From IMG/VR virus record IMGVR_UViG_3300036864_000072, positions 1 through 26,474 of that record: a stretch of 26,474 nt of DNA; one strand, 5' to 3'. The notes beneath the pieces are model-generated. The model had not been told where the DNA came from, did no database searches, and was given only the letters and a program-made list of their open reading frames with translations. Source of the stretch: a virus. How positions within the stretch are numbered: the stretch's first letter is position 1; the number at the start of each line of letters is the position of its first letter. Positions 12,402 to 25,758 of this stretch are shown here, in pieces. Position numbers and translations under genes: made by a program.

Positions 12402-12598
12402 TGACGCTTGAAGAGTTCCGGCGCTTGATCGCTGTGCTCGGCGAACCCGAGCCTGATCCGCTGCAACTCGACTACTGGCTCGGGTATCCTGGCGGAGCCT
12501 TCGTGTACGTGAGGGTGTGGGAACCGACTCACGACGCCTGCACCGATGTTGAGGAATTCAACCTTTTCTCGTATCCCGCACCGAGATTCACAGCGTGA
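12401..12598 (+). CDS. Small acidic phage protein of unknown function
   Basis: A 65-residue protein starting MTLEEFRRLI. The ATG overlaps the previous TGA; a GTG codon just before it could also serve. It is acidic and aromatic in the middle (LDYWLGYPGGAFVYVRVWEP). No motif is recognised. Confidence 0.6.
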   Translation: MTLEEFRRLIAVLGEPEPDPLQLDYWLGYPGGAFVYVRVWEPTHDACTDVEEFNLFSYPAPRFTA

Positions 12599-12912
12599 AC
12601 CGCCGCTCCTTCTTCGCCCGGCTGCTCGGGATCGCGGCGATACCGGTCGCGGGCAAGGTCGCGGCGATGCTACCGGCCGCAGAGTGGACCGAGGAGCTGT
12701 ACGACGCCTCCAACGTCTCGGTGACCTCGATCGCGCGCGGGTTGTGGCCGACGATCGGCTCGTACCGCGAGTACGTCGATCTGCGCACGCTGGTGCGTGC
12801 ACATCTTGATCGGTGGCTCAACGATGAGTTCGACCGGGTCTTCTATGAGGCGCTAACCACGAATAAACCCCTTGCATTCCCCGCCAGAACGCCTATAACT
12901 CGAAAGTTCTAG
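12595..12912 (+). CDS. Small protein with twin-arginine-like N-terminus
   Basis: A 105-residue protein with a GTG start in a GTGA overlap. It opens MNRRSFFARLLGIAAIPVAG, an RRxFF sequence followed by a moderately hydrophobic stretch, close to a Tat signal. A globular, acidic and aromatic part follows (residues 30-95). Similar short proteins are found near head genes of other phages. It ends 32 bases before a strong terminator and so closes this gene block. Export through Tat is a prediction only; a basic amphipathic helix is the alternative. Confidence 0.6.
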   Translation: MNRRSFFARLLGIAAIPVAGKVAAMLPAAEWTEELYDASNVSVTSIARGLWPTIGSYREYVDLRTLVRAHLDRWLNDEFDRVFYEALTTNKPLAFPARTPITRKF

Positions 12913-12943
12913 GCTTCACAACTGCATTCATTGATGGCTCCGG

Positions 12944-12965
12944 ACCCGCGCAAGCGGGTTTTTTT
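12944..12965 (+). terminator. Rho-independent terminator
   Basis: ACCCGC (12944-12949), loop GCAA, GCGGGT (12954-12959), then seven T (12959-12965). It is strong and lies between the regulator block and the packaging genes. Confidence 0.85.
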
Positions 12966-13101
12966 ACGCCCATCGTGCCCCGGACTGTCCCTCGCCGGCG
13001 CCGCGGTTCCTCCTCCTACCGCGCTCTGCGCTGGACCAACGAGGGGCAGCCCGATGCGGTCGAGCCAAGCTCCACATCAACCCCACGGAGATCCAGAGAC
13101 G

Positions 13102-13302
13102 ATGGCGACTTTCGGAATGGTCAAGAAGCGCGGGCAGAGCCGCACGAATCGGCGCGGTCAGTCGGCAAGCGTTCGCGGCACCAGCGGTCTCCCCGACATG
13201 CGCAAGAACCCCGAGCGCGTCCCGGCGGGCAACACCGCCACCGTGAGCCGCGGCCGCATCGCCAACCTGGGCAAGTTCGCCCACGGGCTCAAGCAGCGAT
13301 GA
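13102..13302 (+). CDS. Small basic phage protein
   Basis: A 66-residue, strongly basic protein (MATFGMVKKRGQSR...) with many Arg, Gly and Ser and little predicted order. An in-frame ATG at 13054 sits behind GAGGGG and would add 16 residues; either start is possible. The 189 bases before 13102 hold a terminator and no other frame I trust. It may bind nucleic acid or act as a virion-associated peptide; this is not known. Confidence 0.55.
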   Translation: MATFGMVKKRGQSRTNRRGQSASVRGTSGLPDMRKNPERVPAGNTATVSRGRIANLGKFAHGLKQR

Positions 13303-13445
13303 CCTACATCGTCCAGCGCGGCCGCGCCGACGACCCGCAACGCGTGTTCATCGACGCCATCCTCCACGCTGGCTGCACGGAGATCACCACGATCGAAGCC
13401 GCGAGTTGGAAGGACGCCAGGGAGAAATATCAATGGCTCGGCTGA
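13299..13445 (+). CDS. Very small phage protein of unknown function
   Basis: A 48-residue protein in an ATGA overlap with the gene before. It has a strand-helix-strand-helix layout (TYIVQRG, QRVFIDAILHAG, EITTIEAA, WKDAREKYQ), compact enough to be a small folded domain. The function is unknown. Confidence 0.6.
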   Translation: MTYIVQRGRADDPQRVFIDAILHAGCTEITTIEAASWKDAREKYQWLG

Positions 13446-13633
13446 CCAAGCGCGCTCGCGACGCCATCCCCACATCCCAGTTCGCTGGGCCCAACCGCAG
13501 CTTCCCGATCGAGGACGCTGCGCACGCCAAGGCGGCAATCATGCTGTCGGGCCATGCTGCGAACCCCGGCCAGATTCGCGCCCGAGCCCGCGCCAAGCTC
13601 GCGCAGTACCGTCGCGGCAAGAGTGGCTACTAA
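13433..13633 (+). CDS. Small phage protein, structural-region type
   Basis: A 66-residue protein starting at ATG 13433 behind AGGGAGA. The sequence follows a pattern I know from phage and prophage proteins: 'RDAIPTSQFAGPNRSFPI', then 'HAKAAIMLSG', then 'QIRARARAKL'. In other phages the motif stands alone or at the end of larger head-region proteins. It is basic and helical at the C-terminus. The molecular role is not established. Confidence 0.65.
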   Translation: MARLTKRARDAIPTSQFAGPNRSFPIEDAAHAKAAIMLSGHAANPGQIRARARAKLAQYRRGKSGY

Positions 13634-17364: not shown

Positions 17365-17586
17365 ATGCAAGGTTTCGGATGGGCATTGAAGCAACTGCGC
17401 AACGGCGACCGCGTTGCCCGCAGCGGCTGGAACGGTAAGGGTATGTGGCTCGCGCTGCAGGTGCCCGATGCGCAGAGCAAGATGACGCTGCCGTACATCT
17501 ACATGAGCACGGCACAGGGCGACCTAGTGCCGTGGCTTGCCTCCCAGACCGACATCCTCGCGATCGACTGGGAAGTCGTTGGCTGA
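17365..17586 (+). CDS. tad2: Tad2-like anti-Thoeris protein (DUF2829)
   Basis: A 73-residue protein behind AGAGGA. It carries the DUF2829 signature from end to end: FGWALKQLRNGDRVARSGWN, then GKGMWLAL, then PYIYM, and the hallmark VPWLASQTDILAIDWEVV. Tested DUF2829 proteins (Tad2) from other phages form tetramers that sequester the cyclic ADP-ribose signal made by Thoeris, so the abortive response does not start. This copy is a little shorter than some members, which carry an extra loop before the PYIYM strand, but keeps the conserved ends. It sits in the late region between terL and the portal gene. Family membership is near certain; the anti-Thoeris role here is inferred by homology. Confidence 0.85.
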   Translation: MQGFGWALKQLRNGDRVARSGWNGKGMWLALQVPDAQSKMTLPYIYMSTAQGDLVPWLASQTDILAIDWEVVG

Positions 17587-17632
17587 TCTGTACTCGCCCG
17601 AGGTAGGCACACCGCCCACCTTGGGCGGAGCC

Positions 17633-20425
17633 ATGGAGACACCTGGCGCGAAGCCTCCGGCCAAGCGCCCGCTCAATCTCGACAGCGAGGAATCGCGCAA
17701 GGTGCTGCGCCAACTCGAGGAGTGGTTGGAGACCGAGAAGATTCGCCAGGCACCGAACCGCTACCAGATGGCGCTCGACGACGACTTCTACGACGGGCTG
17801 CAATTCTCCGACGAAGACGCGCAGCTCCTGCGCGATCGCGGGCAGGCCCCGTTGGTCTATAACAAGATTCAACCCGCGGTGAAGTGGGTCACGGGCACCG
17901 AGAAGCGCACGCGCTTCAACTACAAGGTCTTCCCGCGCAGCGATGGCGACATCGACGAGGCGGCGAACAAGACCAAGGTGATGGCCTACATCGACGACGT
18001 CAACAAGAGCGCATTCTCGCGTTCGCGGGGCTTCGAGAGTGCGGCGCGCGTCGGTATCGGTTGGCTCGAATGCGGCATCCGCGGCGATCCGACCATGGAG
18101 CCGATCTACGACCGGATGGAGTCGTGGCGCAACGTCATCTACGACAGCCAGGGCACCGAGCTCGACTGCTCCGACTGGCGCTATCAGTACCGGCACAAGT
18201 GGGTGGACCTCGACATCGCGCAGGCGCTCTTCCCGAAATACAAGGAGACGCTGAAGTCGACGTCGGTGTACTCCGACTACGCTGATCACCACGAAGACGA
18301 AGAGTGGTATCTCGGCCAGATCCTCCAAGAGCGCAGCGCCGATGGCACCGTGCTCAATCGCAACACCTTCATCGACACGAGCTCGTCGCTCTTCAACCGC
18401 CGGGCCCGCGTGCGCTTGAATGAAGCGTGGTTTCGCCGACCGGTGCCGATCAAGTACATCCAGGACCCCACGGGCGAGCGGCAAGACCAGCGCTTCGACC
18501 AGCTCGATGAACAGGGCCGGCAACTGCTGTCAACCGGCGTCATCAGCACCTATTCCCGGATGGGCATGCAGATGTGGTGCGCGATCTTCGTGCGCGGGCA
18601 ACTGCTGCAGCTCATGCCTTCGCCGTACCGCCACAACGATTTTCCGTTCACGCCGATTTGGGCCAACCGCCGCGGCCGCGACAACGCGCCCTACGGCATG
18701 GTGCGAGTGACCCGCGACCCGCAGGAGAGCTTTAACAAGAGAATGTCGAAGGCTTTGTTCGCGATGAGCACGCGGCGCGTGGTGATGGACGTCGGCGCGG
18801 TAGCAGACATCGACGTGCTGCGCGAGGAGGCCGCACGACCCGACGGCATCATCGAGAAGAACCATGGTGCTGACTTTGATATGGCGACGGACATGCAGGT
18901 CGCCGAGGAGCATCTGAAGTACGCGATGCTCGATGAAAAGTCGATCCAGGACCTCTCAGGCGTGACCGACGACCTGATGGGCCGCAAGAGCAACGCGATC
19001 AGCGGCAAGGCGATCGAAGCGCGCCAGGACCAGGGCTCGACTGTCACCACCGATCTCTTCGACAACTATCGCCTCGCGATCCAGCTTCACGGGCAGAAGA
19101 AGCTCTCGCTCATCCGCCAGTACATGACAGTGGAGCAGCAGATCCGCGTCATCGGCGAGAAGAAGGGCACCGACTTCATCACCATCAACCAGGCGATGCC
19201 CGACGGGTCGATCAAGAACGACATGGCCCAGGCCGAGGCCGATTTCGTCATCGACGAGACCGACTACCGGACCACGCAGCGCCAAGCCATGTTCGAGACG
19301 TTGATGGAGATGGTCGTCGAGCTGGGCAAGGTCAACCCGCAATTCGCGATGAACCTCGTCGACGATGTGTTGGAGTTCTCCGACGTGCCGGGCAAGGACC
19401 ACATCATCGCCACCATCCGGGCGATGACCGGGAAGCCAGATCCGAACAAGCGCCTGACCGACGAAGAGAAGCAGGCCATCGCGCAGAAGCAGGCCGAGGA
19501 GCAGGCGATGAAGGAAGAGCAGCAGCGCCTGGTGCTCGAGGGTGCCCGCGCCAAGGTCGAGGAATTGCAGGCCCGGGCGAACAAGCTCAACGCCGAGGCC
19601 GAGAACATCGGTGCCGGCGACGATGGGGAGCTCGCGGCCAGCTACAACCAGAAGCTCCAACAACTGCACGACGACACCACCAGCGTCATCGACAACCTGC
19701 GCAAGCAGCTCATCGAGGCGGAGCGTCAGATCACGACCGCCGACATGCGCGCACTCGACCACTCGCACACCGCGCAACTGGCGAGCACCACCACGATCGC
19801 GAAGACGCTCCTCGACAACGCCTCTAAGGAGCGCATCGCCTCCGCCGCCGACCGCACCGCCGAGGCGACGAGCAAGCAACTACGCGCGATCGACGGTCTG
19901 AACGAGCAGCTCCAGGCGCTCTCGCAGATGACCAAGGGCCTTGAGCGCAAGAAGCTCGACAAGCCGGTCACGCCGAAGGCCGACCCGTTCCAGAAGCTCC
20001 ACGAGCGCGTCGACAGCACCGACGAGAAGGTCAACAAGGTCGCTGAGGACGTGAAGGGCAAGGCACCGCTACCGAAGGCGACCGCAGCCGCAGCCGCGGC
20101 GGATCCGCGCGTCGACGAACTCACCAAGAACGTCCAGGCGATTACCGACGTGGTGAACACGCTGGCCGAGAAGGAACGGCAACCGGCCGTGCACGTGCAC
20201 ACCGAACTCGGCGAGGACGAGCGCAAGAGCCGCAAGGCCGAGAAAGAGGCCGGCGATCAGCGCCACCAGCAGCTCGCCGACAGCGTCAAGGCGATCGCCG
20301 ATCGGCTCGACAACCAACCGGGGCCCGCGGAGAGCGTCGACTTCGACACCGACGACCAGGGCCGCATCAAGAAAGCCCGCATCAACCGTAAAGCCAAACC
20401 ACCGAAGAAGGAGTCGTCAGCATGA
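17633..20425 (+). CDS. Portal protein, P22-like, with long C-terminal coiled coil
   Basis: A 930-residue protein from ATG 17633. A TTG at 17579 next to the Tad2 stop is another possible start, and neither has an ideal ribosome site. Residues 40-600 match the P22 portal family: DDDFYDGLQFS, PLVYNKIQPAVKWVTG, ESAARVGIGWLECGI, then DLSGVTDDLMGRKSNAISGKAIE in pieces. It forms the 12-subunit ring through which DNA enters. P22 gp1 has 725 residues. Here the last about 320 residues are a charged Ala/Lys/Glu/Gln-rich stretch (from about 605) that reads as one or more coiled coils, like the helical barrel of P22 but longer. The stop overlaps the next gene by ATGA. Confidence 0.92.
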   Translation: METPGAKPPAKRPLNLDSEESRKVLRQLEEWLETEKIRQAPNRYQMALDDDFYDGLQFSDEDAQLLRDRGQAPLVYNKIQPAVKWVTGTEKRTRFNYKVFPRSDGDIDEAANKTKVMAYIDDVNKSAFSRSRGFESAARVGIGWLECGIRGDPTMEPIYDRMESWRNVIYDSQGTELDCSDWRYQYRHKWVDLDIAQALFPKYKETLKSTSVYSDYADHHEDEEWYLGQILQERSADGTVLNRNTFIDTSSSLFNRRARVRLNEAWFRRPVPIKYIQDPTGERQDQRFDQLDEQGRQLLSTGVISTYSRMGMQMWCAIFVRGQLLQLMPSPYRHNDFPFTPIWANRRGRDNAPYGMVRVTRDPQESFNKRMSKALFAMSTRRVVMDVGAVADIDVLREEAARPDGIIEKNHGADFDMATDMQVAEEHLKYAMLDEKSIQDLSGVTDDLMGRKSNAISGKAIEARQDQGSTVTTDLFDNYRLAIQLHGQKKLSLIRQYMTVEQQIRVIGEKKGTDFITINQAMPDGSIKNDMAQAEADFVIDETDYRTTQRQAMFETLMEMVVELGKVNPQFAMNLVDDVLEFSDVPGKDHIIATIRAMTGKPDPNKRLTDEEKQAIAQKQAEEQAMKEEQQRLVLEGARAKVEELQARANKLNAEAENIGAGDDGELAASYNQKLQQLHDDTTSVIDNLRKQLIEAERQITTADMRALDHSHTAQLASTTTIAKTLLDNASKERIASAADRTAEATSKQLRAIDGLNEQLQALSQMTKGLERKKLDKPVTPKADPFQKLHERVDSTDEKVNKVAEDVKGKAPLPKATAAAAAADPRVDELTKNVQAITDVVNTLAEKERQPAVHVHTELGEDERKSRKAEKEAGDQRHQQLADSVKAIADRLDNQPGPAESVDFDTDDQGRIKKARINRKAKPPKKESSA

Positions 20426-20979: not shown

Positions 20980-21468
20980 ATGGGGGCTCCAGTCTACGGC
21001 GCCTCAGTCGCTGTCTTCGGCGCCAATGACCTCGACAGCCTCGCCACATCGGCGACTTGGGTCGCGGGCCTTGAGTCCAATGTCATCACTAGTGCATGGC
21101 ATTCAGCACTGCTTGCGGGACGATTCAAGGCCAATAACACCGCGCCCACCGCTGGGCAGATTCAAGTGTGGGTCGGCGGGATTCTGAACGACACGCCAAC
21201 GTATCCCGACGTGTTTGATGGCACGGGAAGCGCTGAGACGGTTACTAGTGTCGACATCCGCAACTCGATCATGCGGCAGGCGGCGGGGATCGTCACGGAT
21301 ACGACTTCAAATCGCATCTACGAATTTGGCCCTGTCTCTGTCGCAGGGCTGTTCGGCGGGGACATCCCACCGAAATGGTGGGTGTTCGTGGCGCACAACA
21401 TGGTGCAAACGCTAAACACCACGACCGGTGCTGGCGGTCAGTGCTGGTACACGCCGGTTACGTACTAG
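20980..21468 (+). CDS. Small phage structural-type protein
   Basis: A 162-residue protein starting MGAPVYGASVAVFGAND. It is beta-rich, and the order of elements (ANDLDSLATSATWVAG, then IQVWVGG and TPTYPDVFDG, then FGGDIPPKWWVFVAHN) is that of a phage protein type ending in 'GG.LPPKWGIVV.N'. In other phages this gene keeps company with the LamG and stem genes, as here. It is probably a virion decoration or appendage component, by association only. Confidence 0.7.
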   Translation: MGAPVYGASVAVFGANDLDSLATSATWVAGLESNVITSAWHSALLAGRFKANNTAPTAGQIQVWVGGILNDTPTYPDVFDGTGSAETVTSVDIRNSIMRQAAGIVTDTTSNRIYEFGPVSVAGLFGGDIPPKWWVFVAHNMVQTLNTTTGAGGQCWYTPVTY

Positions 21469-21469
21469 C

Positions 21470-22228
21470 ATGTTCGACATCCGCCCCAACGCGCTCGAAT
21501 TCGACGGCCTAACGAGTTACGCCAGCGTTGCTAGTGTCGCCATTGCGACGACGCCGATTACGATGGCAGCGTGGGTGTTCGTCGATCCAGCGAGCGTAAG
21601 TGAGGCCTTGAGCACCGTCCTTCAGGTTAAGAACTCGACGTCTGCGGCCTCTACTAATATGTGGGCGCTACGGATAGCTTCGGGTGGTCAGATTAGAGCG
21701 GAGAGCGCCAACGCTACGCTTTCATCTAGCTCGAATGCTCCTTACGCGGCAGCTAATCGAAGGTGGTTTCATAGTGCTGGGACCTTCGCGTCAGCCACTA
21801 ATAGGGTCGGGCATATCAACGGCACACCAGGGACCGCTCAAACAAGTAACCGGGTGCCGAGCGGACTGGATTCGACGACGATCGGCGCGAGTTTGAATAG
21901 CGGCGCAGCCGCAGGATTTTTCCCGGGCGCGGTTGCGCATGCTGCTATTTGGAATGTCGTGCTCGCGCAGTCGGACATTCACCGCTTGGCGAGCGGCGTG
22001 TTGCCACCGCTCGTGGCGCGTGAAAGTCTAGTCGCCTACTGGCCCTTGATGGCTGATGGATTGCCTCCAGGCCACGACTACATGCAGGCGTTCCCGCTGA
22101 CGTGGAGCGGCGGACGAAGCGTGATTCCGGGGCCGTTCAGCAGACCGAGACCATATCTGATTCCGGCGGCGGTCAGCGCCGGCAAGCCCTATCACTACTA
22201 CGCGCAGCAGCGCCGGCAGGCAGCCTAA
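21470..22228 (+). CDS. LamG/concanavalin-like lectin domain protein
   Basis: A 252-residue protein starting at ATG 21470, one base after the previous stop. Residues 8-180 form a LamG-like beta sandwich: LEFDGLTSYASV, PITMAAWVFVDP, MWALRIASGGQI, RRWFHSAGTF, and FFPGAVAHAAIWN. Such domains bind glycans or decorate capsids and tails. The last about 70 residues are Pro/Arg/Tyr-rich. Third-position use is more relaxed than in the terminase and portal genes, with several A/T-ending codons, hinting at a different history. It is probably a surface protein of the virion that binds host polysaccharide. Confidence 0.75.
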   Translation: MFDIRPNALEFDGLTSYASVASVAIATTPITMAAWVFVDPASVSEALSTVLQVKNSTSAASTNMWALRIASGGQIRAESANATLSSSSNAPYAAANRRWFHSAGTFASATNRVGHINGTPGTAQTSNRVPSGLDSTTIGASLNSGAAAGFFPGAVAHAAIWNVVLAQSDIHRLASGVLPPLVARESLVAYWPLMADGLPPGHDYMQAFPLTWSGGRSVIPGPFSRPRPYLIPAAVSAGKPYHYYAQQRRQAA

Positions 22229-24588: not shown

Positions 24589-25704
24589 GTGATCATTGAC
24601 CGCGCCGTCATCCTCGCGGCCCTGAGCAACACCAACGTCAAAGCCGTCCTGCGGGTGCTGCGCGCCGGCGAGAGCCATCAGAACGACGACGCCTACACGC
24701 TGCTGAACGGTGGCGGGCACTTCACCGATCTGTCGTGGCATCCGTACTACGGGCTGCCGACGCCCCCGGCGAAGGCCGCAGGTGCGTACCAATATCTCGG
24801 CACCACTTGGAAGCGCTATGCCGAGAAGTACAACGTCACCGCGTTCAGCAAAGAGGACCAGGACTTTGTCGCGGTCGCCGACATCGCTGAGCACGGTGCG
24901 CTCAATGCGGCGATCGCCGGCGACTTGGCGACCGTCATTCGCCTGCTCTCAAAAGAGTGGGTCTCGCTGCCCGGCCTTGGCACCAAGGCTCGACTCGTAT
25001 TTGAAAACTTCGGCGGACGGTCGGACGCCACCGCACCACCACTGACCACCACCACGGCGGCTACAACGCCGCAGGAGAAGCCCGTGCCCCTATTACTGGC
25101 GTTGCTGCCGGCCGTACTGCAACTGTTCGCACCGCGTGCGCAAGCAGCTCTCGGCAAGATCACCGGAGCTGCTCCGGACATCGTGGAGAAGTTCGCGAGC
25201 AACGTGATCGACAAGGTGCAGCAGGTCACCGGCAAGGCCGACCCCATCGAAGCCGTCGCCGAGCTCAAAAAGAGCCCTGTGTCAGTCGTCGATCAGGTGG
25301 AAGAGAGTGCGCTCGATCATCTCGACAAGTTGCTGCCGGTGCTCGACAAGCTCGCGACCTTCGACAAGGACGCGTGGAGTGCCGAGGAAGCCTCACGCGA
25401 TGCCGCTGCCGAACGTGGCCGCGCGGACGGCTTTGATTTGGGACCGCTGCTCGGCAAGGCCGCAGTCGCCCTGGTCGCCGCCATCCTGCTCGCGATGTTC
25501 GCGATCATGGGCGTGCAGACCTGGCTCTTGGACGAGCACGAGCCGACCACCGCCATCTTGACGATGGCGAGCTCCCTATTCGGCATCGTGTTCTCGACCG
25601 CTTTCGGCGCGATCTACGGCTATCGCTTCGGCTCCAGCCGCTCGAGCAGCGCCAAAGACGTGGTCCTGGGCGAGATCGCCAGCCGCGCGCCCCGACAGAC
25701 GTAA
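24589..25704 (+). CDS. Lambda-R-like lytic transglycosylase fused to a holin-like domain
   Basis: A 371-residue protein with GTG start. Residues 15-135 match the lambda R endolysin family (GH104): LRVLRAGES with the likely catalytic Glu28, LLNGGGHFTDLSWHPYYG, AAGAYQYLGTTWKRYAEK, and SKEWVSLPG. It would cut the glycan of peptidoglycan. A Thr/Ala/Pro linker (147-164) leads to a second part: a hydrophobic opening (VPLLLALLPAVLQLF), a helical middle, and two transmembrane segments (about 288-310 and 320-343) with a charged tail, as in holins. Lambda keeps these two functions in separate genes. An internal start (next entry) may give the holin-like part alone. It is far from the usual lysis place and lies before the scaffold. 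Confidence 0.8.
   Translation: MIIDRAVILAALSNTNVKAVLRVLRAGESHQNDDAYTLLNGGGHFTDLSWHPYYGLPTPPAKAAGAYQYLGTTWKRYAEKYNVTAFSKEDQDFVAVADIAEHGALNAAIAGDLATVIRLLSKEWVSLPGLGTKARLVFENFGGRSDATAPPLTTTTAATTPQEKPVPLLLALLPAVLQLFAPRAQAALGKITGAAPDIVEKFASNVIDKVQQVTGKADPIEAVAELKKSPVSVVDQVEESALDHLDKLLPVLDKLATFDKDAWSAEEASRDAAAERGRADGFDLGPLLGKAAVALVAAILLAMFAIMGVQTWLLDEHEPTTAILTMASSLFGIVFSTAFGAIYGYRFGSSRSSSAKDVVLGEIASRAPRQT
25084..25704 (+). CDS. Holin-like protein from an internal in-frame start
   Basis: Codon 166 of the endolysin gene is GTG, and AGGAG stands 6 bases before it (25073-25077), better than the ribosome site of the full gene. Translation from here would give 206 residues (VPLLLALLPAVLQLF...) with a helical domain and two C-terminal membrane segments. 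This resembles free-standing holin-like proteins of other phages. Whether the internal start is used is inference; the site itself is seen. Confidence 0.55.
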   Translation: MPLLLALLPAVLQLFAPRAQAALGKITGAAPDIVEKFASNVIDKVQQVTGKADPIEAVAELKKSPVSVVDQVEESALDHLDKLLPVLDKLATFDKDAWSAEEASRDAAAERGRADGFDLGPLLGKAAVALVAAILLAMFAIMGVQTWLLDEHEPTTAILTMASSLFGIVFSTAFGAIYGYRFGSSRSSSAKDVVLGEIASRAPRQT

Positions 25705-25736
25705 AGCGTTTCGCTACACAACCGCAGTACACGAAG

Positions 25737-25758
25737 GCCCGCCACCCGGCGGGCTTTT
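25737..25758 (+). terminator. Rho-independent terminator
   Basis: GCCCGCC (25737-25743) pairs with GGCGGGC (25748-25754) around loop ACCC, followed by TTTT. It closes the inserted block before the scaffold gene and is nearly the same as the terminator at 16431. Confidence 0.85.

Follow-up and report, generated by a model that had tools for sequence, protein, structure and literature searches.

The virus contig analysed here (IMG/VR, linear, 26,474 bases; hereafter the window) carries a GTG-initiated open reading frame of 371 aa (24589-25704, plus strand, as are the parts of the gene and the downstream hairpin given below) that is probably a two-start lysis gene. Judged from sequence, it would encode an endolysin tethered to the membrane and, separately, a holin-like protein acting as a hole-former or membrane partner, with the long form perhaps serving as an inhibitor. 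The first-pass annotation had already proposed a tethered endolysin and a holin-like protein from this single gene, and the proposal is favoured by a start codon with a Shine–Dalgarno (SD) sequence at the domain joint (24 of 26 clusters of relatives), by stand-alone counterparts of the C half and by related fusions in which a GH24 or GH19 enzyme takes the place of GH104.

The long product is a GH104-linker-holin-like fusion. A GH104 (lambda R-like) catalytic domain (about residues 1-145; 24589-25023) is followed by a Thr/Ala/Pro-rich linker (residues 146-165; 25024-25083) and the holin-like C half. The first GTG (24589) lacks an SD sequence, whereas the in-frame GTG at codon 166 (Val166; 25084-25086) has AGGAG (25073-25077) 6 nt upstream, as noted earlier and read directly in the window sequence. 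Initiation at this codon would give a short product of 206 aa (25084-25704). A terminator-like hairpin with a T-rich tail (25733-25758) lies after the fused gene and before the putative scaffold gene; three such hairpins occur in the region against 1.4 expected in shuffles.

The N half matches the endolysin family phrog_90 in a profile search (E 3e-17, residues 13-130), lambda lysozyme (3d3d/1am7) in a sequence search (E 5e-13) and 1am7 in a Foldseek comparison (E 7e-6, TM-score 0.73 over the target), in agreement with the expected GH104 relationship. A Pfam search of the window protein gave no significant match, and none to PF11351. Glu28 (24670-24672), previously suggested as the catalytic residue, lines up with HK620 R Glu19 and does not vary across seven GH104 proteins, whose alignment is too divergent for a pattern search, or across 44 fused GH104 proteins; it is likely catalytic. 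By these comparisons the N half is a GH104 lambda-R-like domain, predicted to be a transglycosylase, sharing with lambda R both the enzyme fold and the aligned glutamate.

The C half had been credited with two C-terminal membrane helices; the hairpin stands, but the total does not, as there are three hydrophobic segments. Segment 1 (residues 166-183; 25084-25137), with no charge before it, begins at the internal start, and predicted transmembrane helices 2 (about residues 288-310; 25450-25518) and 3 (about residues 321-342; 25549-25614), both seen in the hydropathy profile and the structure model, are followed by a basic tail. Hydropathy reaches its C-terminal maximum of 2.73 at residue 291; segment 1 (1.56, residue 166) and a further stretch of the hairpin (1.79) are weaker. 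The AlphaFold2 model (mean pLDDT 83.7) has a disordered linker (pLDDT <50 at residues 150-160) and a helix starting at residue 166. Among representatives of 26 clusters of related fusions, none has Lys or Arg before segment 1 (26/26), and the mean net charge is +0.85 after segment 1, falls to -1.04 in the loop of the hairpin and reaches +1.92 in the tail. This average charge pattern, which the hydropathy also fits, suggests that the short product is placed N-out/C-in, as class I holins are. PMC9636201 describes this class I topology and its alteration by the N-terminal change in S107.

In profile searches the C half matches phrog_1544 modestly (E 5e-4). The previously noticed union of a lambda-R-like domain with a holin-like segment holds. 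As evidence of a holin the profile result is mixed: phrog_1544 is filed under unknown function, and PF11351 gave no match to the window C half. The window C half scores 79.7 bits with an HMM of fused C halves from which it was left out and 27.7 bits with an HMM of stand-alone proteins only, against maxima of 6.7 and 5.7 bits, respectively, for shuffled copies. The stand-alone relatives themselves match GTA_holin_3TM (PF11351; L065 E 1.6e-14, L107 E 1.1e-22). A viral fold search ranked a 3TM holin fourth, which was not significant (E 0.19, probability 0.82). Weak matches to a T4SS pilin, nSTAND2 and CysQ-like proteins fell below curated cut-offs and were rejected. For the RcGTA holin, PMC3423380 cites no direct proof of lytic activity.

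Stand-alone C-half genes start at the point corresponding to the fusion joint, and most are found immediately 3′ of an endolysin gene; PF11351, phrog_1544 and phrog_3427 all include such relatives adjoining endolysin genes. Unlike PF11351 members, the window C half is below Pfam detection and fused to an enzyme. The neighbouring enzyme varies. In L062 a GH24 endolysin gene is followed one base later by a phrog_1544 gene (12595-13519), and in L065 the C-half gene is directly 3′ of an M15 endolysin gene. Stand-alone C halves also directly follow an annotated peptidase gene in Vibrio phage 1.024.O and an endolysin gene in Salinivibrio phage SMHB1, while Xanthomonas phage PBR31 has an annotated holin, a lysozyme and then the C-half gene. 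Split GH104 versions exist too: in L106, L113, L118 and L166 a distinct C-half gene overlaps the GH104 gene, and in L107 a PF11351 holin gene follows GH104. A PBR31 protein named "putative spanin" (L196:2495-3043) matches the fused-C-half holin-like model (E 6e-14), and its name may be wrong. A spanin reading of the C half, raised by that annotation, was rejected, as the C half has a C-terminal hairpin and not an N-terminal anchor with a periplasmic arm.

Taken by itself, the SD sequence in the window is weak evidence of an internal start, because synonymous re-coding of the upstream peptide yields such a sequence 52% of the time; within the window, 2 of 198 internal in-frame starts have a 5-nt SD match. 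Comparison with relatives turns the joint start into strong evidence, as far as sequence conservation can tell. Alignment searches recovered 65 further fusions of GH104 to a transmembrane part in IMG/VR (66 including the window), and all 66 have an in-frame start at the joint (ATG in 57, GTG in 9). An SD match of at least 4 nt precedes it in 60/66 and of at least 5 nt in 52/66. The corresponding shares among the 1424 remaining in-frame starts of these genes are 3.4% and 1.7%. Since the script that picked the joint starts preferred those with an SD sequence, a second test applied a comparable rule to controls and used one gene per 50%-identity cluster (26 clusters); matches of at least 4 and 5 nt were found in 24/26 and 18/26 clusters against 6.8% and 3.9% of control windows. 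The residues before the joint start are often K/Q-E-K, a motif that itself encodes an SD sequence, and synonymous shuffles predict 31.8 of 66 genes with a 5-nt SD against the 52 observed; the 66 rows are related, and the SD and shuffle figures are therefore not exact probabilities. Between the SLP motif and the joint start, linker length varies from 35 to 90 residues. In 43/66 genes no SD sequence precedes the long-form start, which hints that more of the short product than of the long one may be made.

The C half is also exchanged between enzymes. A search with it found eight fusions to other catalytic domains, namely GH24 (PF00959; L368:2031-3059 and L374:2497-3543) and GH19-type domains (L369, L370, L372, L375, L377 and L402), and the start with its SD sequence is present at the joint in 8/8. 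L377 resembles phage endolysins of solved structure (9ms7, E 1.5e-48) as well as chitinases, and L369 matches Glyco_hydro_19 below the cut-off, while the other four GH19-type assignments rest on sequence resemblance. Neither phages nor plasmids yielded a match to the C half of L402. A single origin of the fusion gains no support from the tree, a fast one whose window branch is long: the fused label changes 13 times on it, with 5 changes forced by starred branches. The whole window protein, its C half and the portal found no relative when used as direct queries against viral contigs, and tblastn of the C half in phages gave no match; the relatives were reached only through alignment-based searches. 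No phage record spans 80% of a fused protein.

We propose that weak initiation at GTG 24589 would produce the full-length protein, a GH104 transglycosylase joined through a flexible linker to a 3TM-holin-like part, with the enzyme tethered to the inner membrane, and that initiation at GTG 25084 behind its SD sequence would produce the membrane protein alone. The latter would be a hole-former or membrane partner in N-out/C-in orientation. In the long product, the folded GH104 domain ahead of segment 1 should hinder insertion of this segment, and the enzyme would then stay on the cytoplasmic face, the long form perhaps inhibiting the short one as lambda S107 does S105. Membrane opening by the short product would let the tethered enzyme reach the peptidoglycan; action independent of a holin, as in M4Lys (PMC7143992), is also possible. 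Against this proposal weigh the weakness of segment 1 in the window and the modest link to stand-alone holins (1.56 and 27.7 bits, as given above). More tentatively, we speculate that such genes form a widespread one-gene design, in phages with Gram-negative-type endolysins, combining endolysin, holin and their natural fusion by means of the conserved internal start, in which the endolysin domain would be the topological block making an antiholin of the long form, the ratio of the two starts would set enzyme dose, holes and timing, and the enzyme would be exchangeable.

Both products could be made with the short one serving as an antiholin, a pinholin-like depolariser or an anchor partnering the long form, the canonical holin being encoded elsewhere. 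We regard this as possible, if rather doubtful. In L124 a phrog_2359 holin gene and a further small transmembrane gene (L124:3319-3962) lie just upstream of the fused gene; phages of this type may have more than one membrane lysis protein, and the presence of another predicted holin means that the short product need not be the main one. The PBR31 gene order, with its own annotated holin, points the same way, as do complexes of long and short endolysin products in Gram-positive two-start endolysins, whose C-terminal products partner the long form (PMC9430671). However, a scan of neighbouring ORFs in the window revealed no further lysis candidate, PF11351 as the family of close stand-alone relatives bears the holin name, and the charge pattern agrees with class I holins.

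It is unlikely that only the full-length protein is made or relevant, as a C-terminally anchored endolysin whose internal start is a relic of a former downstream gene. Endolysins of Gram-negative phages with an N-terminal enzyme and a C-terminal membrane part, the layout of the window gene, are described in the available portions of the papers on Enc34 (PMC8943055), M4Lys (PMC7143992) and LysAP (PMC8879335), which report no second product, and M4Lys lyses E. coli without a holin. As with these proteins, the host of the window virus is presumably Gram-negative. M4Lys nevertheless has a different enzyme and a short transmembrane part: its gene (L366:40306-41019) matched neither the GH104 nor the C-half models and has no SD-preceded internal start. 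The relic reading is further opposed by the persistence of the joint start and its SD sequence over 26 clusters below 50% identity despite drifting linker length and sequence, by their persistence with three unrelated enzymes and by long-form starts mostly without an SD sequence.

A virion-associated protein acting at entry, a role earlier raised from the position of the gene, appears improbable. The gene does sit among structural genes, between the portal and the putative scaffold, and GH104 domains open the internal protein D of phage BB8 and occur in a tail protein of ST4. The portal (17537-20425) belongs to the P22 family and resembles those of Skulduggery-, Lessievirus- and PBC5-like phages at about 40%; in these phages it is followed by a protein of roughly 320 aa, in several by a CsrA-like gene, and by the capsid gene. 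The window and relatives such as L009 and L062 carry an insertion of additional genes ahead of the putative scaffold, and the L062 insertion opens with the GH24 endolysin and stand-alone phrog_1544 pair. As a lysis pair occupies this interval in L062, the window gene is suggested by sequence to be its fused counterpart, and the entry role is weakened accordingly. The C-half family moreover occurs as separate genes directly 3′ of endolysins, a virion role leaves the conserved internal start unexplained, and on a fast tree most virion-type GH104 rows group away from the fused ones (3 label changes). Another inserted gene in the portal-scaffold interval of the window (21428-22228) encodes a Laminin_G_3/ConA-like domain protein, perhaps a fibre or decoration protein. 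Finally, GH104 and the C half are separate genes in several phages, but a lost stop or frameshift merging two genes in this assembly is so unlikely as to be negligible, given 65 additional, independent fusions of GH104 and eight of other enzymes on many contigs and in several bacterial genomes.

Accounts of phage lysis usually assign holin, endolysin and spanin to distinct genes. Lambda keeps R and S apart, and its longer S form gains just two residues. Lambda S105/S107 nonetheless offers a close parallel to the proposed arrangement in having two in-frame starts and long and short membrane proteins, and its N-out/C-in three-helix pattern is likewise predicted for the window short product; here, however, the extension would be a whole endolysin, and the C half has no demonstrated kinship to lambda S. 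In Staphylococcus phage 187 a holin-like gene lies inside ply187, so that a holin-like product comes from within an endolysin gene; its frame differs from that of the endolysin, whereas in the window the two are in frame and share a stop.

Two-polypeptide endolysins made from in-frame internal starts are known in Gram-positive phages from PMC9430671, PMC4777826 (CTP1L) and PMC12203907 (phi2638A). Like the window gene, they combine two in-frame starts with a shared stop in one gene, but their short product carries a wall-binding part or a catalytic domain as well, whereas that of the window would be a membrane protein; PMC9430671 excluded Gram-negative phages, in which it considered internal starts unlikely. 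A natural holin-endolysin fusion of Clostridium sporogenes (PMC9527704) differs, in the portions available, in its N-terminal holin, TpeE family and Gram-positive host, with no internal start described. An in-frame internal start of an endolysin gene giving a holin-like protein was found neither in the accessible text of open-access papers nor in 50,697 phage records. Endolysin internal starts, endolysins with C-terminal transmembrane parts, a holin-endolysin fusion and the lambda dual start are each known; their combination did not appear in that open-access text or those records.

If the two-start reading is correct, the second start yields a membrane protein onto which the first start welds an enzyme, so that a single transcript would couple dose and timing. 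In such genes automated annotation would report one endolysin and overlook the holin. It would also represent a lysis design in phages whose joint start signal is kept in dozens of distant relatives.

The GH104-fused C half recurs in bacterial genomes related to G274, where the fusions are probably prophages. A sample of the class of G274 contained one genome with the C half and a sample of its family contained more; two genomes of this family have stand-alone C halves beginning at the same point. One genome, G732, carries the full fusion together with two extra C-half copies that lack the first 40 positions (L410 and L413; C41:41943-42353 and C27:55774-56187).
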